A stretch of 64,000 nt of DNA, from the NCBI RefSeq assembly GCF_016526145.1, contig NZ_JADDUE010000009.1, forward strand, positions 62,001-126,000. The letters are read 5' to 3'. The position numbers were made by a program, and so were the translations under genes. Under the pieces are notes generated by a model. It made no database searches and was not told the DNA's origin. It saw only the letters and a list, made by a program, of their open reading frames with translations. This document shows, in pieces, positions 3,317 to 40,999 of the stretch. Positions within the stretch are counted from its first letter, which is position 1. Each line of letters begins with the position of its first letter. Source of the DNA: Saccharopolyspora galaxeae. Its GTDB lineage: Bacteria > Actinomycetota > Actinomycetes > Mycobacteriales > Pseudonocardiaceae.

Positions 3317-3351
3317 AAACGCGGGTGATCGATCGATCACCGTGCGCGTTT
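3317..3351. promoter_or_regulatory. Long palindrome in a divergent promoter
   Basis: GGTGATCGATCGATCACC (3324-3341) is a perfect 18-bp palindrome. It is flanked by AAACGCG (3317-3323) and, after a 3-base offset, CGCGTTT (3345-3351), so the arms continue. It sits between the divergent membrane-protein start at 3216 and NB-ARC start at 3405. A shared operator or a strong hairpin in both leaders is likely; no regulator can be assigned. Confidence 0.7.
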
Positions 3352-3404
3352 CGCCCGCGGTAAGGTCGCACCCGGAGAAGATCAACGACCTCCCGGGGGC
3401 GGCG

Positions 3405-5525
3405 ATGGGCGATCCTGCCTGGCACAACTCCAACAACTCGCAGGTGCACGGAAATTTCGTGCAGGCGGGCGTGATCAACGCCGAGCGGATCATCTTCGGG
3501 TCGTCCGAGCACGCGGGCCCGGCGATACCGGACACGCTGCCCGCGAAACCCACCGGATTCCTCGACCGCGAGCACGAGTCCGGCAAGCTCGACGAGCTCC
3601 TGCGCGCGGCCGAGGCCGCCGGAACCCAGCTGCTTGCGCTGCTGCCCGGGATGCAGGGGGTCGGCAAGACGACGCTGGCGGTGCACTGGGGCCGGTCGAA
3701 CAAGCACCTGTTCCCGGACGGAGCGCTGTTCGCCGACCTGGCGGCTTCCGCTCCGGGCGGCCCTGCCGGTGCCGACGAGTTGCTCGGCGGGTTCCTGGCC
3801 CAGCTGGGTGTTCCGCCCGCGATGACTCCGGTGCGGACGGCCGATCGCCAGGCGGTCTTCCGCAACCTGACCAGCGGCCGCAGGATGCTGGTGGTGCTCG
3901 ACGACGCGGCCAGCACCGCGCAGGTAACCGAGGTCATGCCCGCGTCGGAACGCAGCTGCGTCCTGGTGACCACGCGCAAAACCCTCGGGCTGGACGCGGT
4001 TTCGGTGCCGGTCGAACCGTTCGGCTCGGAGCACGCGGAGGCGCTGGCCGGGCGCGATCTCGGCGAACCGGTTTCGGACGACGACCGCGCGGCGCTGCGC
4101 AAGGTGGTCAACGCCTGCGGTGGCCACCCGCTGGCGCTGGATCTGCTGCGCGGCAAGCTCGCCGGGCGGGTACCGCTCGCCTCCTATGTGGACGGAATCC
4201 TGTCCCGCGGGCTGCTGCCGCGGCTGCGGTTCGACGACGGGGCCGAGCTCTCCGAGGTCGCGTTCAAAGCGGTGCACGAGGAGTTGTCCGCCGCGCAAGA
4301 ACGCGCTTTCCGGCTGCTGGGGGCGCATCCCGGTGCCACGTTCTCGGCGCGCACGGCCGCCGCGATGCTCGACCTGCCGGAGTTCGAGACCACCGAACTG
4401 CTGGACGACCTGCAGCGCCTGCGGTTGTTGAGCAGGGCGGGCGGGCGCTACCGGTTCCACGCGCTCACCCGGCTGTACGTCGCCGACCACGGCCGCGAAG
4501 CGGGTGACGCCGGCGAGCTCGCCGCGGCGCTGAGCAGGATGGTCGTGGACTACCACGAATTCGCGATCGGGCGGGACAAGGTGCTGTCCGGGCGGCGCCG
4601 GATCAGCGAGCAGCGCTACGCCGCGGTGCCCACTGCCCACAGTGGACCGGACGCGCGCGGGGAGGCGCTGCGGGACCTCGCCGAGGAACGGCCGAACCTG
4701 CTCGCCGCGGTGCGCACCGCCGCCGACCTCGCGATGTGGGAACAGGTGTGGCAGCTGTGCGAAAGCCTGCACCCGTACTACTCGGACCGCGCGCTGTACG
4801 GGGATTGGCTGGACAGCCACGAACTCGGCGTTTCCGCCGCGGAGGAGATCGCCGACCCGGCGGCGCAAGCTCGGATGCGCTGGCAGTACGGCGCCGCGTT
4901 GTTCGCGGTGCACGAGGATTCCGCCGCCGCGGAGCAGTTCGAGCGGGCGCGTGCGCTCGCGGTGGCGCACGGAGATGCGTGGGGCGAGCAGAGCGCCACC
5001 GAGTGGGCCGGGTTCGTGCTGGAACGGACGGGTTCGCTCGAAGCCGCGCTGGAATGCTTCGACCGCTCCAAGGCGATCGTGTCGGAGCGGTTCCCGGCGC
5101 AGCGCCGGCGGCGCCCGCTTGCGCTCCACAGGATGCACGCGGGCCGGGTCCTGGTGCGGCTCGGCCGGTTCGCGGAGGCGCAGGAGTTGTTGCGGGACGC
5201 CGCCGAGGTCTTCGAAGACCTCGGTGAGCCCGGGAACGTGGCCAAGGTGCTGCTGCCGCTGGCACAGGCGCAGCTGCGCACGGCGGAGCCCGCGGCCGCG
5301 TTGGAGCAGGCTCGGCTCGCGCTGGATTCCTTCGTGCGGCTGCGGATTCCCGATTGGCGGGTCGATGCGCTGGAGCTGCTCGGCGAGATCCACGAACGGC
5401 TCGGCGATCGGGAAGCGGCGAGCACGTGCGCGCGGGAAGCCGCTGAAGTCGCGACCGTGCTCGGCCAGCAGCGCGCGCAAGCGCTGTGGGACCGCGCCGA
5501 GCAGGACGGTCCGTCGCGGTCTTAG
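3405..5525 (+). CDS. STAND/NB-ARC ATPase with C-terminal TPR region
   Basis: 706 residues. The N-terminus carries a short tag, NSNNSQVHGNFVQAG (8-22), seen in many actinobacterial STAND proteins. The NB-ARC core follows: Walker A GMQGVGKT (82-89), Walker B MLVVLDD (161-167), sensor-like CVLVTTRK, and a GLPLAL-type CGGHPLAL. A winged-helix-like stretch leads into helical TPR-type repeats over roughly 430-700. There is no recognisable DNA-binding or effector domain. Such proteins are ATP-driven switches that oligomerise on sensing a ligand; whether this one regulates transcription or belongs to a defence or signalling pair cannot be seen. ATG 3405 is the best start (weak GGGGGCGG upstream). Divergent from the membrane protein; repeat element A follows the stop. 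Confidence 0.88.
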   Translation: MGDPAWHNSNNSQVHGNFVQAGVINAERIIFGSSEHAGPAIPDTLPAKPTGFLDREHESGKLDELLRAAEAAGTQLLALLPGMQGVGKTTLAVHWGRSNKHLFPDGALFADLAASAPGGPAGADELLGGFLAQLGVPPAMTPVRTADRQAVFRNLTSGRRMLVVLDDAASTAQVTEVMPASERSCVLVTTRKTLGLDAVSVPVEPFGSEHAEALAGRDLGEPVSDDDRAALRKVVNACGGHPLALDLLRGKLAGRVPLASYVDGILSRGLLPRLRFDDGAELSEVAFKAVHEELSAAQERAFRLLGAHPGATFSARTAAAMLDLPEFETTELLDDLQRLRLLSRAGGRYRFHALTRLYVADHGREAGDAGELAAALSRMVVDYHEFAIGRDKVLSGRRRISEQRYAAVPTAHSGPDARGEALRDLAEERPNLLAAVRTAADLAMWEQVWQLCESLHPYYSDRALYGDWLDSHELGVSAAEEIADPAAQARMRWQYGAALFAVHEDSAAAEQFERARALAVAHGDAWGEQSATEWAGFVLERTGSLEAALECFDRSKAIVSERFPAQRRRRPLALHRMHAGRVLVRLGRFAEAQELLRDAAEVFEDLGEPGNVAKVLLPLAQAQLRTAEPAAALEQARLALDSFVRLRIPDWRVDALELLGEIHERLGDREAASTCAREAAEVATVLGQQRAQALWDRAEQDGPSRS

Positions 5526-5530
5526 GAGTC

Positions 5531-5625
5531 GTTTCAGTATGATTTTCGGTCTTGTCTTGTCAGCGGCGGAGCCGCTGAGGTTCCGCTACCGGCACCGCTA
5601 CGCAAATCATTCTGAAAGAATTTCT
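5531..5625 (-). repeat. Dispersed structured intergenic element, copy A (short form)
   Basis: Read on the minus strand this copy matches the outer parts of copy D (26087-26303): TTTGCGTAGCGGTGCCGGTA, then GCGGAACCTCAGCGGC, then GCCGCTGACAAGACAAG and a final TGAAACG. It lacks the roughly 120-bp central hairpin of copies C and D. It keeps the small hairpin CAGCGGC-tcc-GCCGCTG. It fills the gap between the convergent NB-ARC and NmrA-type genes. Confidence 0.85.
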
Positions 5626-5632
5626 TAGAGCT

Positions 5633-15638: not shown

Positions 15639-16838
15639 CTACGCCGTGGCCGCGCGCTGCGCGGTCTTCGGGATGTCCTTCTGCGGGTCCAGGAAGGGCT
15701 TTTCGACCACCTCGGCCTGCTGCGGGCCGTGCTGGGTGTGCACCACGAGCTCGGTGCCGAACTCCTGGTAGGCCACCGGGACCATGGCGAAGCCGATGTT
15801 GCCCTCCACCCGCGGCGAGTGGCAGGCCGAGGTGACCTCGCCGATGCGCAGCCCGTGCGGGTCGTGCACGTCGAACGGCTCGATCATGTTGCCGTCGTTG
15901 AACGAACCGATCGAGGGCCCGCCGATCCGCACGCCGACCAGTTTGCGGGCCACCCCTTCGGACTTGATCCGGGTCAGGGCTTCCTTGCCGATGAAGTCGG
16001 ATTCCTGGTTCAGGTCGACCATCCAGGTCTTCTCGAAGCCGTAGCCCGCCTCGAACGGGTTGGTGTCATAGGTGATGTCGCAACCCCAGGACAGGATCCC
16101 GGCCTCGATGCGGCGGATGTGGCACGGGCCGATCACGGTCATCCCGTGCGGCTCGCCGGCCTCCCAGATCGTCTCCCACAGCTTCACGCCGTCGCGGCTG
16201 GCGTGGTGCAGGTAGATCTCGTAGCCCAGTTCCGCGGTGTAGCCGGTGCGGGAGACCACGACCTGCATCCCGTTCAGCTCGCGGTCCACCGCGTAGTAGT
16301 ACGGAACGTCCAAAATGGACTCGCCGAACAGGTCGACCATCACGTCGCGCGACTTCGGCCCCTGCACCTGCACCGGCCCGACATCGGGCTCGCGGATCTG
16401 CACGTCCATGCCGAGGTTGTGCGCCAGGCCCTTCGCCCACAGCAGCACGTCGCTGTCGGCCAGCGACAGCCAGAAGTGGTTCTCGCCCAGCCGCAGCAGC
16501 ACCGGGTCGTTGATGATGCCGCCGTCCTCGGCGGTGACGAACACGTACTTGCACTGCCCGACGCGGCACTTGTTCAGGTCGCGCGGCACCAGCATGTTGG
16601 TGAACTCGAAGGCGTCCGGGCCGGTGATCTCGACCTGCCGTTCCACCCCGACATCCCAGAGCGTCACCCCCTCCAGCAGCGCCCAGTACTCAGCGACCGG
16701 GTCACCGTAGTGCCGGGGGTGGTACGTGTGGTTGTAGACGCTGTAGAGGCCCACGCCGTGCTGCCTCGATGCGTGGAAGAACGGCGATTTGCGCAGCCGG
16801 GAGTACTGCAGGATGCCCGGATTCGGGTTGACGGCCAT
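15639..16838 (-). CDS. GcvT-fold THF-dependent demethylase, DmdA-like
   Basis: 399 residues of the aminomethyltransferase (GcvT) fold. Several motifs follow dimethylsulfoniopropionate demethylase DmdA more than classic GcvT: YSVYNH (32-37), WDVGVERQVEI (61-71), WLSLADSDVLLWAKG, VQVQGPKS and IRRIEAGILSWGCDI. DmdA moves a methyl group from DMSP to THF, giving methyl-THF. Substrate choice cannot be settled by eye; other methylated sulfonium, amine or aryl-ether compounds are possible. ATG 16838 follows AAGGAG. The gene heads a tight unit with reductase, fhs and cyclohydrolase, exactly the enzymes needed to oxidise methyl-THF. Repeat element B sits directly in front and a copy of its leader lies on the far side. 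Confidence 0.85.
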   Translation of the reverse strand: MAVNPNPGILQYSRLRKSPFFHASRQHGVGLYSVYNHTYHPRHYGDPVAEYWALLEGVTLWDVGVERQVEITGPDAFEFTNMLVPRDLNKCRVGQCKYVFVTAEDGGIINDPVLLRLGENHFWLSLADSDVLLWAKGLAHNLGMDVQIREPDVGPVQVQGPKSRDVMVDLFGESILDVPYYYAVDRELNGMQVVVSRTGYTAELGYEIYLHHASRDGVKLWETIWEAGEPHGMTVIGPCHIRRIEAGILSWGCDITYDTNPFEAGYGFEKTWMVDLNQESDFIGKEALTRIKSEGVARKLVGVRIGGPSIGSFNDGNMIEPFDVHDPHGLRIGEVTSACHSPRVEGNIGFAMVPVAYQEFGTELVVHTQHGPQQAEVVEKPFLDPQKDIPKTAQRAATA

Positions 16839-16840
16839 GG

Positions 16841-16940
16841 GCTGATGCTCCTTAGAAAGTTCTTTCAGAGTGGGTTTGCGTGGCGGTGCCGGTAGCGGAA
16901 CCTCACAAAGATCAAAAAGAAGTGTGCTGATGCTCCTTAG
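16841..16940 (+). repeat. Dispersed element copy B flanked by a 15-bp direct repeat
   Basis: The core (16856-16925) matches the family: CTTTCAGAGTGGGTTTGCG, GGCGGTGCCGGTAGCGGAAC, then CTCACAAAGATCAAAAAGAAG, with the central hairpins missing. GCTGATGCTCCTTAG occurs at both edges, 16841-16855 and 16926-16940. The inner copy carries the ribosome site of the DmdA-like gene. The arrangement looks like an insertion with target duplication, or a leader duplication. Confidence 0.8.
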
Positions 16941-19917: not shown

Positions 19918-21153
19918 ATGCGATCCCGCCCTCCACAAGCTCCGGAACTCCCGGAACCTCCCGCGCGCCTGTGGCGTCCGGCCGAGCCCAAGCGCGGCTA
20001 CGACGTGGTGATCGTCGGCGCGGGCGGGCACGGACTGGCGACCGCCTACTACTTGGCCCAGGAACACGGGATCCGGGACGTCGCGGTATTGGAACGCGGC
20101 TGGCTCGCGGGCGGGAACATGGCCCGCAACACCACGATCATCCGCTCCAACTACCTGCTCGACGAGAGCGCCGCGCTCTACGGGCACGCCCTGGACCTGT
20201 GGGAGCGGTGGCCGGCCGAACTGGACCACGACTTCCTGCTCAGCCAGCGCGGGGTGCTCAACCTGGTGCACACCGAGCAGGAGATCCGGGACGCGCGGCG
20301 GCGGGTGTTCGCCAACGGCCTCAACGGAATCGACGCCGAGTTCGTCGGTCCGGAGGAGATCGCCGAACTGTGCCCGGTGCTGGATGTCTCGCCGCACAAG
20401 CGATATCCGGTCCGCGGCGCCACTTGGCAGCCGCGGGCCGGGATCGCCAAGCACGACCACGTCGCGTGGGCGCTGGCGCGGCGCGCCGACCAGCTCGGCG
20501 TCGATCTGATCGAGAACTGCGAAGTCACCGGGTTCGTCATGGACGGTGCGCGGGTCGCGGGAGTGCGGACCTCGCGCGGGGACATCGCCGCCGGCCGGGT
20601 CGGGCTCGCCGCCGCCGGGCGGACCAGCGCGCTCACCGAGACCCTCGGGCTGCGGTTGCCGCTGCAGAGCCATCCGTTGCAGGCCATGGTCTCCGAGCTG
20701 CTGGAGCAGGTGCACCCGTGCGTGGTGATGTCGAACCACGTGCACGTCTACTGCAGCCAGGCGCACAAGGGGGAATTGGTCCTCGGCGCGGGGATCGACA
20801 CCTACAACGGCTACGGGCAGCGCGGGTCGGTGCACGTGCTGGAGCAGCAGCTCGCCGCGGCGGTGGAGCTGTTCCCGATGTTCGCGCGGGCGCACGTGAT
20901 CCGGACTTGGGCGGGCGTCGTGGACGTCACGCCGGACGCCTCGCCGATCATCGGGCCCACGCCGGTGGAGGGCCTGTTCGTCAATTGCGGATGGGGCACC
21001 GGCGGGTTCAAGGCGACTCCGGCCGTCGGCCGGGTGTTCGCGCACACCGTTGCCACTGGTGCGCCGCATCCGCTCAACGAGCCCTACGGGCTGGAGCGGT
21101 TCCGCACCGGGGCCCTCATCGACGAACACGGCGCCGCTGCCGTGGCGCACTGA
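19918..21153 (+). CDS. soxB: Sarcosine oxidase subunit beta
   Basis: 411 residues. The FAD-binding [20 protein letters not shown] lies at 28-47 and [15 protein letters not shown] at 66-80, both near-diagnostic for SoxB. The [17 protein letters not shown] stretch contains His179, the position expected to hold covalent FMN in heterotetrameric sarcosine oxidase. The enzyme oxidises sarcosine with oxygen to glycine and peroxide, passing the C1 unit to THF in the alpha subunit. ATG 19918 is preferred (GGGTG upstream); GTG 19906 in frame is possible and neither has a strong ribosome site. Unusually, soxD does not follow at once: element C fills 278 bases between the two. Confidence 0.95.
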
Positions 21154-21159
21154 AGAATG

Positions 21160-21425
21160 TTTGAAAGGTGGTTTGCGTAGTGGGTCGCTTAGCGGAACCT
21201 CAGACGCCGTCTCGCTGCGGGATCTCGTCCTGAAGTAGCGCCCTACTCGGCGGCTGAGCTGTCCTCGCGAGACGACGCCTGAGAACCCGCGGCGGTGCCG
21301 GTTGCTCAGGTGGTCCGCCGCAAGCGGCTGCGCCGCTTCCAAGGCCGAACACAAGAGCGTGCCGCCACGCAAAAGGCGCAGCCGCGCCGCTCGAAGACAA
21401 GAGCCCAAATGATCCGAAGTGGAGG
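21160..21425 (+). repeat. Dispersed structured element, copy C (long form) inside the sox operon
   Basis: It matches copy D over its length: GTTTGCGTA, TTAGCGGAACCTCAG, a 16-base arm at 21199-21214 pairing with 21268-21283 (14 of 16), an inner AGTAG/CTACT hairpin (21234-21238, 21243-21247), GCGGCGGTGCCGGTTGCT, an AAGCGGC-tgc-GCCGCTT hairpin (21322-21338), and GAAGACAAGAG. Many arm differences from copy D are compensated on the other side. It lies in transcribed sequence between soxB and soxD. Confidence 0.85.
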
Positions 21426-21431
21426 GACGTG

Positions 21432-21674
21432 ATGTTGCGCATCCCTTGCCCCTGGTGCGGTGAGCGGGACGAGGTGGAGTTCCGCTACGGCGGTCAGGCG
21501 CACGTCCGATACCCGGCCGACCCGGCCGGGCTGGACGACGCCGCCTGGGCGGAATACCTGTTCGTGCGGGGAAATCCGAGTGGCAGCCTCGCCGAGCGCT
21601 GGGTGCACACCGCGGGGTGCAGGCGCTGGTTCGACCTGGTCCGGGACACCGCGACGAACGAGATCACGTCATGA
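21432..21674 (+). CDS. soxD: Sarcosine oxidase subunit delta
   Basis: 80 residues, the usual size. It starts MLRIPCPWCGERDEVEF and ends with HTAGCRRWFDLVRDT. Cys6, Cys9, His59 and Cys63 form the zinc site known for this subunit, which braces the alpha-beta heterotetramer. ATG 21432 is chosen over GTG 21429 because GGAGGGA sits at a better distance. The stop overlaps the soxA start (ATGA), so the two are translationally coupled. Confidence 0.95.
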   Translation: MLRIPCPWCGERDEVEFRYGGQAHVRYPADPAGLDDAAWAEYLFVRGNPSGSLAERWVHTAGCRRWFDLVRDTATNEITS

Positions 21675-24514
21675 CCCGGCTCGGCAGCGGCGGCCGCATC
21701 GACCGCAGCCGCACGGTCCGGTTCACCGTGGACGGCGTGCCGATGCTCGGGCATCCCGGCGACACGCTTGCTTCGGCGCTGCTGGCCGCGGGCGAGATCG
21801 AGGCCGCGCCGTCGCCATATCTCGGCCGCCCGCGCGGAATCCTCACCGCCGACGCGAGCGAGCCGAACGCGATGGTCCAGGTGCTCGACGAGCCCGAGCC
21901 GATGGTGCCCGCGACCGAAGTGGAGCTGCGCGACGGCCTGGAAGTGGCGAGGCTCTCCGGCGTCGGCTGGGCCGAAGCGGGCGAGGAGTCCCGCTGCGAC
22001 AAGAAGTACCGGCACGCCGACGTGGTCGTGATCGGAGCCGGCCCCGCCGGGATCGCCGCCGCCCTCGCGGCCGGTCGCAGCGGCGCGCGGGTGATCCTGG
22101 TGGAGCGCAATCGGGAACTCGGCGGCGCGCTGCTGGACGGCGACGAGGTGGTCGACGGCCTGCCCGGTCCGGAGTGGGTGCGGCGGGCGGTGCGGGAACT
22201 CGTCGAACTGCCCGAGACGCGGGTGCTGACCCGCGCTACCGCGGTCGGCCACTACGACCACGGATACCTGCTCGTGGCCGAACATCCCGGACCTGGCAAG
22301 CACCCGGGGCAGCACCGCCTGTGGCACCTGCGGACCCAGCAGGTGGTGCTCGCGGCGGGTGCGCGGGAGCGGCCGATCGCGTTCGCGGGCAACGACCGGC
22401 CCGGGGTCGTGCTCGCTTCCGCGGTCCGCCGGTACGTGCGCCGGTTCGCGGTGCTGCCGGGGCGGGAGGTGGTCGTGTGCACCACTTCGGACAGTGCTTA
22501 TGCGACGGCGCTGGACCTCGTCGCGGCCGGGGCTCGGGTACCGGTGCTGGTGGACAGCCGGAACGACCCGCCCGCTCGGCTCGCCGCGCGGGCGCGCGAA
22601 GCGGGCATCCCGGTGCGGATCGGCTCTGCCGTGGTGCAAACCGTTGGCGCACAACGGGTTTCGGGTGTTCGCGTGCGGGATCTGGACGAGCGGGGCAGGC
22701 CGATCGGGGAACCGGAGGAGTTCGGCTGCGACCTGCTCGCGGTGTGCGGCGGCTGGAACCCGGCGACCGAACTGGCCGGTTCCTCCGGCGCGTTGCGGTG
22801 GGATCCCGTGGTGGCCGGATTCGTTCCGGACCCGGAGCAGGCTGATCCGGACAAGGACGGGCGGATCGTCGGTGCCGCGCGCGGCACGTACGACCTTGCC
22901 GGCTGCTTGGCGCAGGGGTTCGCCGCCGGAGCCGCGTCCGCGACCGCGAGCGGGTTCCGCGTGGTGCCGCCGCCGGTGCCCGCGGTGCGCGGTGACCTGA
23001 CGTGCGCGCGTCCCCGGCCGCTGTGGCTGGTCGATGGCGACGAGCGGGAGATCTTCGTCGACCAGGCGCGGGACGCGACGGTCGCCGACGTCCGCCGCGC
23101 GGTCGAAGCCGGTCTGAGCTCGCCGGAGCACGTGAAGCGCTACACCACGATCGGCACCGGCAGCGATCAGGGCGCGACCTCCGGCATCGTCGCGCTCGGC
23201 GTGCTGGCGACCCTGCTCGGGATGGACTCGCCAGCGGCGCTGGGACCGACCGGTGCGCGGCCGCCGACGCGCCCGGTGCGGTTCGAGCTGATGGCCGGTA
23301 GGGACCGCGGCGAGCTGCACGATCCGGTGCGCACCACGCCGATGCACGCCTGGCACGTCCGCGCGGGCGCGGAGTTCGAGAACGTCGGCCAGTGGAAGCG
23401 TCCCTGGTACTACCCGCAGCCGGGCGAGGACATGGAAACCGCGGTGCTGCGCGAATGCGCGGCCGCGCGCACCGGGGTGGCGATGATGGACGCCAGCACC
23501 CTCGGCAAGATCGAAGTGGTCGGCCCGGACGCGCCGGAATTCCTCAACCGCGTCTACACCAACGGTTTCGCGAAGCTCGCCGTGGGCAAGGCCCGCTACG
23601 GCATGATGTGCACCGCCGACGGCATGGTCTTCGACGACGGCGTCACGATGCGGCTGGCCGCGGACCGCTACCTGATGAGCACCACCACCGGCAACGCGGC
23701 CGCGGTGCTGGACTGGCTGGAGGAGTGGCTGCAGACCGAGTGGCCGCAGCTGGACGTGCGCTGCACCTCGGTGACCGAGCAGTGGGCCACGATCGCCGTG
23801 GCAGGCCCGGATTCCCGCGCGGTGCTGGCGCGCGTCGCACCGGAGCTGGACGTCTCGGCCGCCGGCTTCGGGTTCATGGAGGTCCGGGAAGCGTTGCTGC
23901 GCAACGGGATTCCGGCCCGGATCTGCCGGATCTCGTTCTCCGGCGAGCTGGCCTTCGAGATCAACGTCGAGTCCTGGTACGGCCAGGCGGCGTGGGACGC
24001 GGTCACCGAGGACGGCGCGGATCTCGGGATCACGCCCTACGGCACCGAGACGATGCACGTGCTGCGCGCGGAGAAGGGGTTCGTCATCGTCGGCCAGGAC
24101 ACCGACGGCACGGTCACCCCGCTGGACCTCGGCATGGACTGGGTCGTCTCCAAGCGCAAGGACTGCATCGGCAAGCGCTCGTTCGCCCGGCCGGACACCG
24201 CGCGTTCCGATCGCAAGCAGCTGGTCGGGCTGCTGCCGGTGGACTCCGACGCGTTGTTGCCGGAAGGCGCCCAGCTCATCGAACCGGGCACGCCGCTGAC
24301 TCCGCCGGTGCCGATGCTGGGGCACGTGACCTCCAGCTACCGCAGCGCCGCGCTGGGGCGGACGTTCGCCCTGGCGCTGATCCGCGGCGGACGCGGCCGG
24401 GTCGGCGAGGTGCTGCACGCCCCGCTCGGCGGCACCGCCATTTCCGCCGAGGTCACCGAACCCGTCTTCTACGACCCGGAAGGAGCGCGCCGTGACGGTC
24501 ATCAGCCCGGTTGA
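21671..24514 (+). CDS. soxA: Sarcosine oxidase subunit alpha
   Basis: 947 residues, typical for SoxA. Order: an N-terminal ferredoxin-like domain without cluster cysteines (RTVRFTVDGVPMLGHPGDTL), the NAD-binding Rossmann fold VVVIGAGPAGIAAALAAGR (118-136), a second nucleotide-binding part, and a C-terminal GcvT-like folate domain from about 560 (MMDASTLGKIEVVGPDAPEF, ICRISFSGELAFEINV). The subunit carries NAD and receives the methylene iminium intermediate to form 5,10-methylene-THF. ATG 21671 overlaps the soxD stop; earlier in-frame residues lie inside soxD. The end overlaps soxG by 23 bases. Confidence 0.96.
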   Translation: MTRLGSGGRIDRSRTVRFTVDGVPMLGHPGDTLASALLAAGEIEAAPSPYLGRPRGILTADASEPNAMVQVLDEPEPMVPATEVELRDGLEVARLSGVGWAEAGEESRCDKKYRHADVVVIGAGPAGIAAALAAGRSGARVILVERNRELGGALLDGDEVVDGLPGPEWVRRAVRELVELPETRVLTRATAVGHYDHGYLLVAEHPGPGKHPGQHRLWHLRTQQVVLAAGARERPIAFAGNDRPGVVLASAVRRYVRRFAVLPGREVVVCTTSDSAYATALDLVAAGARVPVLVDSRNDPPARLAARAREAGIPVRIGSAVVQTVGAQRVSGVRVRDLDERGRPIGEPEEFGCDLLAVCGGWNPATELAGSSGALRWDPVVAGFVPDPEQADPDKDGRIVGAARGTYDLAGCLAQGFAAGAASATASGFRVVPPPVPAVRGDLTCARPRPLWLVDGDEREIFVDQARDATVADVRRAVEAGLSSPEHVKRYTTIGTGSDQGATSGIVALGVLATLLGMDSPAALGPTGARPPTRPVRFELMAGRDRGELHDPVRTTPMHAWHVRAGAEFENVGQWKRPWYYPQPGEDMETAVLRECAAARTGVAMMDASTLGKIEVVGPDAPEFLNRVYTNGFAKLAVGKARYGMMCTADGMVFDDGVTMRLAADRYLMSTTTGNAAAVLDWLEEWLQTEWPQLDVRCTSVTEQWATIAVAGPDSRAVLARVAPELDVSAAGFGFMEVREALLRNGIPARICRISFSGELAFEINVESWYGQAAWDAVTEDGADLGITPYGTETMHVLRAEKGFVIVGQDTDGTVTPLDLGMDWVVSKRKDCIGKRSFARPDTARSDRKQLVGLLPVDSDALLPEGAQLIEPGTPLTPPVPMLGHVTSSYRSAALGRTFALALIRGGRGRVGEVLHAPLGGTAISAEVTEPVFYDPEGARRDGHQPG

Positions 24515-25103
24515 ACCCGGCACCACCGGCCCGGCAGGCGTCGAACGGCTGCGCCGCAGCCCGCTCGCCGACCGCGCCGCCGAACTGGCCGCGGCCGCGG
24601 GGCCGCGCGGCACCCGGCTCGCCGAGGAACCGTTCCTGACCCAGGTGAACCTGCGGGCCGCGCCCGAACAGCTCGCGCGGCTCGGCAACGCGGCGGGAAT
24701 CCCGTTGCCGCGCAAGGCGAACCGCGTGGGCGGCGACGCCCAGCGGGCGGCGCTGTGGCTCGGCCCGGACGAATGGCTGCTGATGGCGCCGGACGGCGAG
24801 GCCGCATCGCTGCGCGACGCGCTCGGTTCCGCCGGTGCCGCGTCGGTCGTCGACCTGTCCGCGAACCGCACCACGCTGCGGCTCAGCGGCGGGTCCGCCC
24901 GGGACGTGCTGGAGAAGGTGTGCTCGCTGGACCTGCACCCGCGCGCGTTCGCCGCGGGGTACTGCGCGCAGACCTTGCTCGGCCGCACCCAGGCCGTGCT
25001 CTGGCAGCTCGGACCGGAGCCGGACTACCGGATCCTGGTGCGGAATTCGTTCGCCGGCTACCTGGCCGATCTTCTGCTGGACGCGCTGCGCGGGCCTGCC
25101 TGA
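24492..25103 (+). CDS. soxG: Sarcosine oxidase subunit gamma
   Basis: 203 residues, matching the family size. It shows the SoxG pattern FLTQVNLRA, LWLGPDEWLLMAPDGE (the strongest mark), DLSANRTTLRLSG and FRILVRNSFA-like YRILVRNSFAGYL. It is the fourth structural subunit, GcvT-like but without catalysis of its own. GTG 24492 follows a perfect AGGAG lying inside the end of soxA, so the overlap is genuine. It ends the sox operon; the IclR gene starts 188 bases later in the same direction. Confidence 0.94.
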   Translation: MTVISPVEPGTTGPAGVERLRRSPLADRAAELAAAAGPRGTRLAEEPFLTQVNLRAAPEQLARLGNAAGIPLPRKANRVGGDAQRAALWLGPDEWLLMAPDGEAASLRDALGSAGAASVVDLSANRTTLRLSGGSARDVLEKVCSLDLHPRAFAAGYCAQTLLGRTQAVLWQLGPEPDYRILVRNSFAGYLADLLLDALRGPA

Positions 25104-25291
25104 TTAGGGCGCTGCGTTCAAGATCGTGGCGCCGAGCAACGGCTGCTGCCTGCGCGGCGTGTTCCCGGCCCGGTGACGGGGATCGGGGAGGTATCGTCCG
25201 CAGCGAAATCGCCCTTCGACACTGTTGCGCGATGCGGAACGCCGGGTATGGTCGCTAGGAAAACCACCAGCGACGGGATTCGGGTCCAACC

Positions 25292-26086
25292 GTGGTCAAC
25301 GCTCCTCAACCGGCCGAACGCGAAAAGCCCGGCGCACTCGTGCAGTCCGTGGACCGGGCGGTGAGCGTGCTGGAACTGCTGGCCCGCAACGGCGAAGCGG
25401 GCATCACCGAAATCGCCGGGGAACTCGGCGTGCACAAATCCACCGCTTCCCGGCTGGTCAGCGTCCTGGTCTCGCGCGGGCTGGTGGAGCAGCTCGGCGA
25501 ACGCGGCAAGTACATGATCGGGTTCGGTGTGGTGCGGCTGGCCGGGGCGGCCACCGACCGGCTGGACCTGCCCCGGCTGGGCGGCCCGTACTGCGAGTCG
25601 CTGGCGGCCGACCTCGGCGAGACCGTGAACATCGCGGTCCGCGACGAGGACGTCGCGATCAACATCAGCCAGGCCCGCGGCACCGCGTCGGTGACCGCGC
25701 ACAACTGGGTCGGCCAGCGCACCCCGCTGCACGCCACTTCCAGCGGGAAGGTGCTGCTGGCGCACGCACCCGACGACGACCAGGAAGCGCTGCTGGCGGG
25801 GGAGCTGGCGCAGTACACCACGCGGACCGTCATCGACCCCGGGGAACTGCGCGACGGCTTCGACCTGATCGTGCGGGACGGGTACGCCACCAGCTACGAG
25901 GAGCTCGAGCTCGGGCTCAACGCCGCGGCGGTGGCGGTGCACCGGCACGACGGCGAGGTGGTGGCCGCGCTCAGCGCCTCCGGGCCGTCGTACCGGTTCT
26001 CCCGCAAGCGGATGCGCGAAGTGATCGGTGCGATGACGGTAGCGGCGAAAGAACTCTCCGCGCAGCTGGGATTCCTGGAAACCTGA
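25292..26086 (+). CDS. IclR-family transcriptional regulator
   Basis: 264 residues. The N-terminal winged helix (about 17-80) includes SVDRAVSVLELLARNGEAG and HKSTASRLVSVLVSRGLVE. The ligand domain carries TPLHATSSGKVLLAHAP (the family's TxxGKxxLA loop) and GYATSYEELELGLNAAAVAV. IclR proteins act as dimers or tetramers on palindromic sites and sense small organic ligands. Position behind soxG argues for control of the demethylation island, perhaps via the inverted repeat at 19657-19686; the ligand might be sarcosine, betaine or a related compound (inference). GTG 25292 is the first plausible start, with no strong ribosome site. Repeat element D follows the stop. Confidence 0.93.
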   Translation: MVNAPQPAEREKPGALVQSVDRAVSVLELLARNGEAGITEIAGELGVHKSTASRLVSVLVSRGLVEQLGERGKYMIGFGVVRLAGAATDRLDLPRLGGPYCESLAADLGETVNIAVRDEDVAINISQARGTASVTAHNWVGQRTPLHATSSGKVLLAHAPDDDQEALLAGELAQYTTRTVIDPGELRDGFDLIVRDGYATSYEELELGLNAAAVAVHRHDGEVVAALSASGPSYRFSRKRMREVIGAMTVAAKELSAQLGFLET

Positions 26087-26303
26087 CTTTTTCAGAATGA
26101 TTTGCGTGGCGGTGCCGGTAGCGGAACCTCAGCGGCTTCCTCGCTCCGGGATCGATTTCTGACGTATGCCCATACGCGGCGAAATCGCTGTCCTCGCGAG
26201 GAAGCCGCTGAGAACCCGCGGCGGTGCCGGTTGCTTGCATGGCCACTGCTCAGCGGCTACGCCGCTGACAAGACAAAGATCAAGAACCGTAGTGAAACGC
26301 CGA
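26087..26303 (+). repeat. Dispersed structured element, copy D (long form)
   Basis: The element fills the gap between the convergent iclR and antiporter genes. Parts in order: TTTGCGTGGCGGTGCCGGTA, a perfect 16-bp stem CTCAGCGGCTTCCTCG (26128-26143) with 26197-26212, an inner hairpin CGTATG-cc-CATACG (26163-26176), a second GCGGTGCCGGT (26221-26231), hairpin CAGCGGC-tac-GCCGCTG (26251-26267), then GACAAGACAAAG and TGAAACG. CTCAGCGGCT occurs at 26128 and 26249; recombination between these two would produce the short copy A. Confidence 0.88.
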
Positions 26304-27860
26304 TCAGTCGCGTTGCAGCATGACGTCTTCCAGGTCTAGCTCGTGCAAGACCCGGCGCAGCACCTCGTCGTCGATGCGGCCTTCGTCGCGGAAACGCACG
26401 AACACCTCGCGCTCGGCGGCCAGCATTTCGATGCGCAGCCGCCGGTAGGCGGTGGTGGGGCTTTCGCCCAAGTCGGCATCGGGGCGGCCGAGCCGTTCCC
26501 ACGCGCGGTGGCTGCGGCGTTCGGCCGCGCGACGCAGCTGCTCGGCGACCTCGGCGGGTGGTTCCGCCTCAGCGGTGAGCGCGTCCAGCCGCCCGCGGGC
26601 GGCGAGCGCGGCGTTGTGCGCGGCCTCGGCCTCGGCGAGCGCGTCGGTGTAGTTCTCCCGGCCGCGCACTCCGAGCCACCGGATCACCCACGGCAGCGTC
26701 GCGCCGTGCAGCAGCAACGTGCCCAGCGTGACGAAGAACGCCAGGAACACGACTTCCGCGCGGTTCGGGAACGCCAGCACCGGGATCGCGGCGGCCGCGG
26801 CCAGCGAGACCACACCGCGCATTCCCGCCCAGGCCACCACCAAGCCGTGCTGCCACGGCGCCGCATCCGCTCCGCGAGCGATCCGATCGGGCAGCAGCAA
26901 CGTGCCGAACACCCAGACCGCGCGCACCAGCACCACCGCGGCGGTCAGCGCGAGCCCGGCCAGCACGAGCGGCCAAAGCCGTCCGGCGACGCCTTCGGTG
27001 ACGCTGCGCAGCTGCAACCCGATCAGCGCGAACACCACCGCTTCCAGCAGCGTGTCCGCCGAGCGCCACACCGCGCGGTCCTGCAGCCGCCGTGCCGCGG
27101 TGCCCGAAGGCGCCCGCTGCGCCAGGTACAGCCCCGCCACGACCACGGCGAGCACTCCGGAGGCGTGGATCGCCTCGGCCAGCAGGTAGGTCGCGAACGG
27201 GACCAGCAGGCCCACGGCGCTCTCCAACACCCCGTCGGCCAGCGCCAGCCGGAGGCGGTGCACCGCCCAGCCCACCGCGCAGCCGACGACCAGCCCGCCC
27301 GCGGCCGCGAGCACGAACACGCCGACGCCCTGCAGCAGCGTGTAACCGGCGCCGACCACACCGGCGACGGCGACGCGGTAGACCGTCAGCGCCGAAGCGT
27401 CGTTGACCAGGCTCTCCCCGGACAGGATCGTCATCACCTTGCGCGGCAACCCCAGTCGGCGACCGATCGAGGTCGCCGCCACCGCGTCCGGCGGAGCCAC
27501 CACCGCGCCCAGCACCAGCGCGGGCCCGAGCGGCATCCCGGGCACCAGCGCCCACGCCGCGAAACCCACCGCGACCGTCGTCACCAGCACGGCACCGACC
27601 GCGAGCGAACCGATCGGCCGCAGGTTCGCGCGCAGGCCCAGCGCGGAACTGGTCAGCGCCGCCGAGTACAGCAGCGGCGGCAGCACCAGCACCAGGATCA
27701 CTTCCGGGTTGATCGCGTAATCCGGCACGCCGGGCACGAACGACACCGCCAGCCCGGCCAGCACCAGCGCCAGCGGCTCCGACAACCCCCAGCGGCGGGC
27801 CAGCGCCGTGACCGCCAGCGCGCCTGCCAGCAGCAACATCACTTGCGGGAACTCGTGCAT
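26304..27860 (-). CDS. CPA1-family Na+/H+ antiporter (NhaP/YjcE type)
   Basis: 518 residues: about 12 membrane helices to residue 400, then a cytosolic charged tail rich in helices (residues about 405-518). Family motifs are VLVLPPLLYSAAL, VAPPDAVAATSIGRRLGLP (the DA substrate site), SGESLVNDASALTVY and WAGMRGVVSLAAAAAIP. It exchanges sodium or potassium for protons at the inner membrane. ATG 27860 begins the first helix; the longer frame upstream runs Arg-rich and antisense to the zinc-finger gene. Divergent from the UBP zinc-finger gene, a domain family often found fused to or beside such antiporters. Confidence 0.93.
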   Translation of the reverse strand: MHEFPQVMLLLAGALAVTALARRWGLSEPLALVLAGLAVSFVPGVPDYAINPEVILVLVLPPLLYSAALTSSALGLRANLRPIGSLAVGAVLVTTVAVGFAAWALVPGMPLGPALVLGAVVAPPDAVAATSIGRRLGLPRKVMTILSGESLVNDASALTVYRVAVAGVVGAGYTLLQGVGVFVLAAAGGLVVGCAVGWAVHRLRLALADGVLESAVGLLVPFATYLLAEAIHASGVLAVVVAGLYLAQRAPSGTAARRLQDRAVWRSADTLLEAVVFALIGLQLRSVTEGVAGRLWPLVLAGLALTAAVVLVRAVWVFGTLLLPDRIARGADAAPWQHGLVVAWAGMRGVVSLAAAAAIPVLAFPNRAEVVFLAFFVTLGTLLLHGATLPWVIRWLGVRGRENYTDALAEAEAAHNAALAARGRLDALTAEAEPPAEVAEQLRRAAERRSHRAWERLGRPDADLGESPTTAYRRLRIEMLAAEREVFVRFRDEGRIDDEVLRRVLHELDLEDVMLQRD

Positions 27861-40751: not shown

Positions 40752-40772
40752 GCGCGCACCCCTCGTGCGCGC
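40752..40772 (-). terminator. Expression-platform hairpin behind the riboswitch
   Basis: GCGCGCAC and GTGCGCGC form an 8-bp stem with a 5-base loop, directly 3' of the riboswitch on the minus strand. It is a likely part of the switch output, although there is no U tract. Confidence 0.5.
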
Positions 40773-40975
40773 ACCGATGGCAGGTCTTCGGACTCACGAG
40801 CAGCCGGCGTCGTCGCGCCGGACCTACTGGCCGTCGCTTCCCGGACGCCTCGGGCGTCCAGTGCTGCACCACCCGGGGAGGTGGTGACGGCGGTCGTTCC
40901 CGTTCACCGCTGCGGGGCAGTCCCGGATTCGCACCGGGTTCCCTGTTGTCCCACCGGGCACCCCGGTGACCATCA
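40773..40975 (-). ncRNA. Cobalamin (B12) riboswitch upstream of nrdAB
   Basis: On the minus strand the leader has the conserved GGGAACCCGGTGCGAATCC, GGGACTGCCCCGCAGCGGTGA-type core (around 40905-40950) and the 3' B12 box GAGTCCGAAGACCTGCCAT (40777-40795). Spacing and order agree with the cobalamin family. It lies 133 bases before the nrdA start. Streptomyces nrdAB operons carry the same arrangement, where cobalamin represses the class I enzyme in favour of the B12-dependent class II one. Confidence 0.93.
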
Positions 40976-40983
40976 GCGCGGCC

Positions 40984-40999
40984 ACACTACATGTTGGGC
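40984..40999. promoter_or_regulatory. Possible NrdR box (weak)
   Basis: ACACTACATGTTGGGC agrees with the 16-bp NrdR-box pattern at about 12 positions and sits at the expected promoter of the nrdAB transcript. NrdR boxes usually come in pairs, and I find no good partner. Confidence 0.3.

Follow-up and report, generated by a model that had tools for sequence, protein, structure and literature searches.

Four intergenic places in a 64,000-nt stretch of the Saccharopolyspora galaxeae genome (contig NZ_JADDUE010000009.1, positions 62,001 to 126,000; hereafter the window) carry related sequences, one of them in the gap between soxB and soxD. The initial annotation proposed that these are either a functional RNA or a DNA hairpin element, and which of the two they represent, and how they reached their places, is the question addressed here. 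The relatedness of the four sequences (copies A–D) was upheld at all four places by searches of the own genome, in which copy D recovered 48 matching pieces and copy C 40. The sox setting was also found to be correct, as SoxD and SoxG were recognised by Pfam and FAD oxidoreductase and GCV_T genes were present around them.

Four elements and their common fold

The features of the four elements, in window coordinates, are as follows.

5525..5624, minus strand: copy A, core lost by deletion and both ends kept, with TTA at 5522-5524 and 5625-5627
16856..16925, plus strand: copy B, its two ends joined directly after loss of the core, upstream of the GCV_T gene start at 16838 (minus strand)
21154..21425, plus strand: copy C, complete element extended by a longer 3′ tail, in the soxB-soxD gap
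21190..21292 (G000:C34:83190-83292), plus strand: hairpin core of copy C, 112.6 bits
21322..21338, plus strand: copy C 3′ hairpin, with the loop c(GCA)g on the minus strand
26087..26303, plus strand: copy D, complete element, filling the gap between the IclR gene stop and the convergent Na/H exchanger gene
26105..26122, plus strand: direct repeat 5′ of the copy D core, CGTGGCGGTGCCGGTAGC, from repeat search
26119..26221 (G000:C34:88119-88221), plus strand: copy D hairpin core, 118.3 bits with model R1
26217..26234, plus strand: direct repeat 3′ of the copy D core, CGCGGCGGTGCCGGTTGC, 89%, from repeat search
26251..26267, plus strand: copy D 3′ hairpin, with the loop c(GTA)g on the minus strand

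Copy D starts directly past the TGA of the IclR gene (26084-26086) and is bordered on its 3′ side by the convergent Na/H exchanger gene (26304-27860, minus strand), and copy C is flanked by the soxB stop (21151-21153) and the soxD start (21432). Copies A and B, as read from the sequence, are deletion derivatives that retained the element ends and lost the hairpin core. Copy A is located between converging genes (ends 5525 and 5633), and its first base is the last base of the TAG stop of a gene encoding an NB-ARC/TPR protein (3342-5525, plus strand). Among the copies inspected by eye, a clean 3-bp duplication (TTA) was found only at copy A and the element ends were variable; a TNA duplication was not seen at most copies read in this way. 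Copy B is exactly bracketed by a 15-bp exact direct repeat, GCTGATGCTCCTTAG (16841-16855 and 16926-16940). By eye the GCV_T ribosome-binding site falls within this repeat, which is too long for a duplication of the TTA type of copy A.

The core of the element is one long hairpin of about 103–105 nt. Above its GCGG/CCGC foot follow an AAC/AAC internal loop, a 17-bp stem, a GGGAT/GTCC region, and then a second, shorter stem that carries the apical hairpin; AAC/AAC and GGGAT/GTCC are fixed motifs that stay unpaired. In many copies short direct repeats border the core and a further hairpin lies on its 3′ side. A covariance model of this core (R1, 103 nt) was built from 32 aligned own-genome copies. 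A 16-bp stem had been described as kept between copies C and D despite at least four differences on both sides; four pairs are indeed changed on both sides, and the stem is 17 bp long. The main stem is perfectly paired in copy D, and in copy C it contains two A.C mismatches that were absent from the initial annotation. The covariation claimed for the inner hairpin was confirmed between C and D, with the closing pair changed from C-G to A-T and GTATG/CATAC standing against GTAG/CTAC, and the third (3′) hairpin covaries as claimed in its outer pair, A-T versus C-G. When compared with shuffled sequences, the fold of copy D gave a z of -5.9 with 0 of 200 shuffles as good, and the long copy C stretch was less clear (z -1.7, 12 of 200).

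The 32 aligned own-genome copies showed both-sided changes in 13 of 38 pairs and in 133 cells, compared with 51.1 cells in shuffles and 2–17 cells in a control with the partners slid by 1–3 columns. Two of the five measures were not above shuffles in this set, namely both-sided pairs (13 versus 11.9) and further pair types (23 versus 25.2). In the relative G017, 93 copies (91 distinct) were changed on both sides in 21 of 38 pairs and in 318 cells versus 88.7 in shuffles, and all five covariation measures exceeded all 500 shuffles, in an alignment that was fitted to R1 and hence leans towards structure. Two unpaired motifs were also kept, GGAACCT in 35/35 own and 81/94 G017 cores and AGAACCCGC in 32/35 and 81/94, respectively. 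The compensatory changes across own-genome and G017 copies support the claim that fold is conserved more than sequence; covariation holds over many genomic copies, and the copies are not mere recent identical duplicates.

Copy number, insertion sites and core exchange

In the own genome (G000), R1 gave 39 rows, two of which are antisense echoes of listed copies, leaving 37 places. The model was positive in 13 of 60 genomes, comprising the five of the genus, among them the own genome, seven further family members and one weak case elsewhere; this last match, in G047 outside the family (E 8e-6), looks like chance. The number of copies was 124 in G017, at least 150 in G003 and 46 in G016. In a sample of the class, R1 was found in 1 of 296 genomes, the own genome only, by a shallow search that scored 13 candidates per genome. 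Saccharopolyspora spinosa (Pseudonocardiaceae) carries the element (locus L110), and the element has so far been found in a single actinobacterial family, probably Pseudonocardiaceae, to which the remaining carriers would also belong. Rfam at gathering scores returned only a cobalamin riboswitch in the window (40762-40989, minus strand, 83.6 bits) and no family for the element, and at a permissive threshold five element loci gave five matches, all far below gathering scores. The copy D query had no match in plasmid and phage records, and no paper on this hairpin family was among the matches listed in literature searches.

The occupancy of sites differs between relatives. No R1 match was present in the soxB-soxD gap at any of 80 soxB loci, a few of which reach little beyond the soxB stop, and the sole R1 place among them lies about 4.8 kb away from the gap; similarly, 19 named relatives had no element within 72 nt past the soxB stop. 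A paralogous soxB-soxD pair of the own genome (L195, G000:C4:144800-147000) contains a partial element in the opposite orientation. Some sites are common to genus members: the L046/L052 site holds different cores in two genomes of the genus, and its G017 equivalent is empty, with the aligned flanks less than 20 bases apart, and the L057/L199 site is also shared, its hairpin having been lost at L199.

The position of the copies relative to genes was determined from gene calls made in this analysis. A co-oriented gene precedes 25 of 33 classified own copies and 84 of 93 G017 copies, and behind such genes the core starts 33–57 nt past the stop codon in 21/25 and 59/84 cases, respectively. In G017, 45 copies were found in convergent, 38 in tandem (same-direction) and 2 in divergent gene pairs, and 7 ran antisense to the genes on both sides, with one copy having no called downstream gene and one more, overlapping a called frame, left out; in the own genome four copies were antisense to both neighbours. 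Elements paired tail to tail at a distance of about 200 bp were observed in G017 at L088 and L081 (875605+/875814- and 4204113+/4204310-), and at L277 of the same genome the gap gene of a whiA-gap-pgk neighbourhood has an element on either side (names read from translations). A composite element carrying a gene between two copies was considered at L277 and L036/L048 and rejected for these loci, the genes between or beside the copies being housekeeping genes by reading.

The cores were compared with their flanks. Ten G003 loci picked by equal score have an identical 103-nt core, and in a multiple alignment their adjacent flanks differ by 21% (5′, 20 nt) and 11% (3′, 45 nt). Within the G003 burst, a set of near-identical copies scoring 93–99 bits, gapped pairwise alignment gave flank differences of 13% (5′) and 12% (3′) between copies with identical cores, compared with 25% for unrelated 22-mers. 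When all pairs of G017 and of the G003 burst were taken, flank divergence was nearly independent of core divergence, and one core shared by three G017 copies is preceded by a different 5′ flank in each; among own-genome copies, 3′ flank divergence does track core divergence. Many of the burst copies (L293-L312, G003) are followed on their 3′ side by small hairpins (GGCACGGCTTCGCCG...) in arrays whose length varies.

Replication polarity, strand of folding and candidate mobilisers

The orientation of the elements was related to replication by taking the terminus as the half-way point. The dnaA and dnaN genes lie within the first 5 kb of G017, G016 and G003, and the GC skew of sampled G017 loci switches sign between the genome halves. 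The leading to lagging ratio was 99:25 in G017 and 27:2 in G016 (29 listed of 46 copies), and in G003 (121 rows listed of at least 150) it was 18:2 at 99 bits or more and 31:11 below 93 bits. Among the matches listed, the G003 burst was without polarity (28:31), and G001 (24:13, p 0.10) and G004 (7:5) were not significant. Gene orientation is insufficient to account for the polarity in G017, because the elements between convergent gene pairs are oriented with versus against replication in a ratio of 36:9, and because 76/94 elements are leading compared with 160/255 genes in the same loci (Fisher p 0.0012). In tandem pairs of G017, 32 copies were co-oriented and one was not where the genes are leading, and the numbers were six and six where the genes are lagging. 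The G017 copies having a neighbour within 3% were more polar (35/38 versus 41/56, p 0.03), and no polarity difference was seen at near-identity cut-offs of 5% and 8%. The polarity could originate from biased insertion or from later selection, and the unpolar G003 burst speaks for later selection.

The strand of the core that is predicted to fold better is the minus strand. The mean predicted RNA fold energy of the core was -61.9 (minus) versus -53.9 kcal/mol (plus) in 35 own copies, the plus strand being better in 2, and -65.9 versus -61.1 in 93 G017 copies, the plus strand being better in 21; for the full ~200 nt of the own copies the strand difference in predicted energy was small. A scan detected the 3′ hairpin in 32/35 own and 31/94 G017 copies. 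Its minus-strand loop has the form G...A in 32/32 own and 22/31 G017 hairpins, compared with 3 of 112 background window hairpins, and c(GNA)g or c(GNNA)g loops closed by C-G were found on this strand in 32/32 and 21/31, respectively; the tail hairpins of G003 have a like loop type by eye. DNA hairpins with loops of the c(GNA)g and c(GNNA)g type are exceptionally stable. In the foot and main stem, A.C exceeded G.U by 51:10 in 89 sense rows and by 42:22 in G017, an excess that in both sets leans on one or two pairs and is accompanied by G>A in the unpaired control, so that these wobble counts carry little weight as an indication of the folding strand. A terminator scan of 20900-26500 found four sites against 2.3 expected; copies C and D had no plus-strand site, and two minus-strand sites lie in the tail of copy C.

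Several enzymes were considered as mobilisers. The RAYT-type Y1 transposase (PF01797) is present in 4/13 carriers and absent from 9/13, and 18 Y1 loci scanned with the model gave one weak match only (E 0.016, L209) with no clear adjoining element; on these grounds RAYT/Y1 was rejected as the general mobiliser. A reverse transcriptase (PF00078) was found in one of eight carriers examined (G016), in a sample that left out G001-G004 and G047, and its absence from the other seven led to the rejection of a group II intron or retroelement derivative as a general source of mobility. An IS5-type insertion sequence of G003 has GGGGTCCTTKCAGAATG ends and a TTA duplication. Such an end was matched within 5 mismatches at the 5′ end of 7/35 own and 7/94 G017 copies, at background rates of 0.4% in shuffles and 0.9% in random windows, and at the 3′ end of 5/35 and 5/94. 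A transposase of this type (E<=1e-30) was detected in 6/12 carriers and not found at this threshold in G000 (own), G002, G004, G018, G029 and G030. Three of four full copies of the IS5-type element in G003 (L319, L325, L330) lie within ~250 bp of a hairpin element. At own contig ends (L353, L354, L357, L358) an insertion sequence, with an IS481/IS3-like transposase end by eye, stops at the element foot GGTAGC; three of six junctions read GGTAGCGGAACC, a fourth resembles the opposite side of one of these sites, and by reading the GTAG of the element supplies the stop codon to the reading frame of this insertion sequence.

Explanations weighed and relation to known systems

Of the two natures proposed at the outset, the balance now tips towards the DNA element, a role of the transcribed hairpin being the less probable of the two. 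Because of the high copy number, the gain at sites that are empty in relatives, the polarity in three genomes, the core exchange and the minus-strand loops, we consider it probable that the copies belong to a small non-autonomous mobile DNA hairpin element, REPIN- or MITE-like, rather than to one RNA gene. The hairpin would be extruded as single-stranded DNA at the replication fork, recognised by a protein and then copied to new intergenic sites or into older copies, the fold and not the sequence being the selected unit as in REPINs but without a RAYT, and the part of the family with IS5-type ends may travel as MITEs. Against this stand several observations. No transposase has been tied to the element; an IS200/IS605-like picture misfits, since the favoured orientation puts the plus strand as lagging-strand template whereas the minus strand folds better; the G003 burst is unpolar, and G001 and G004 are not significant, among the matches listed; two sites (L046/L052 and L057/L199) are common to genus members and the element ends vary; and the 5′ flank difference of identical-core G003 copies falls from 21% to 13% with gapped pairwise alignment. 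A more specific proposal is offered tentatively, that the ~105-nt core alone might be a self-copying unit, coupled to replication and dependent on neither RAYT nor reverse transcriptase, which replaces older cores and whose orientation is set by the fork, with a hairpin-recognising enzyme presumed.

That the hairpin instead acts in cis in the 3′ untranslated part of mRNAs, in stability, processing or termination, and was spread by transposition or duplication through host benefit, seems unlikely to us. The location of most copies behind a co-oriented gene (25/33 own, 84/93 G017), with the core mostly 33–57 nt past the stop, the 45 convergent against 2 divergent cases in G017 and the strong RNA fold of copy D (z -5.9) would agree with such a role, but the core folds better on its antisense than on its sense strand, orientation in convergent pairs of G017 tracks replication (36:9), four own and seven G017 copies are antisense to both neighbours, relatives often do not share sites, and the terminator-like matches inside elements in 20900-26500 are confined to the minus strand of the copy C tail. 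Still less probable is an ordinary IS5-family MITE in which IS5-type terminal repeats act, the TNA target accounts for the stop codons through duplication of TGA/TAA, and the hairpin simply travels along. Although the GGGGTCCTTKCAGAATG ends and TTA duplication of the G003 insertion sequence, the 7/35 own copies with that end, the TTA on both sides of copy A and the 3/4 G003 insertion sequence copies beside the element are in its favour, 28/35 own and 87/94 G017 copies do not have the end at the same cut-off, 6/12 carriers have no close transposase, and the covariation, polarity and core exchange are left unexplained. We give the least credence, and very little of it, to an origin of the covariation without structural selection, in which the palindrome arms would correct each other by templated repair and so mimic compensation while ectopic gene conversion homogenises the cores. 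The cores of G003 and G017 do look homogenised independently of their flanks; arm-to-arm repair is disfavoured, however, because it should erase fixed unpaired motifs, and GGAACCT and AGAACCCGC persist in most copies in two genera. The mobile DNA hairpin thus remains the preferred reading, and it was compared with known systems.

ERIC, YPAL and Correia/NEMIS sequences are small palindromic intergenic mobile sequences that may become part of mRNAs close to stop codons. Neither replication polarity nor core exchange is known for them; their hosts are unrelated to those of the present element, and the likeness is one of description. Integron attC sites are recognised by their structure, lie behind stop codons and are co-oriented with genes, and in these three respects they resemble the element as proposed here. 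They differ from it in that the foot motifs of the element are, by eye, both AAC on one strand and not the inverted RYYYAAC / GTTRRRY, and in that the inspected copies are at ordinary chromosomal genes and not in cassette arrays. To IS5-family MITEs there is a likeness in that some copies have IS5-like ends and TNA flanks and copy A has TTA on both sides, but most copies are without such ends, the structured core is large and conserved, and half of the tested carriers are without a close transposase.

The closest likeness is to REPIN/REP sequences, which are described (PMC3116915, PMC3733652) as extragenic high-copy hairpins of ~100 nt that are non-autonomous, show compensatory changes in their stems and spread with the hairpin as the unit. 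The element would be filed as REPIN-like in its mode of working and not as a REPIN, because two defining features, the tag at the hairpin foot and the RAYT, were not recovered: of the tag forms GTAG and CGTC, GTAG was counted and is not conserved (21/35 own, 27/94 G017), the carriers are mostly without a Y1 transposase (9/13) and no clear element lies beside the 18 Y1 loci. Its fixed internal loops, partial IS5-type ends and leading-strand polarity in three genomes are further differences. High-copy hairpin repeats of this look have so far been best explained by RAYT transposases, and most carriers here are without a recognisable Y1. The family thereby offers a comparative system for finding what moves and reads such hairpins, in actinobacteria where the 3′ ends of many genes bear mobile structured DNA.
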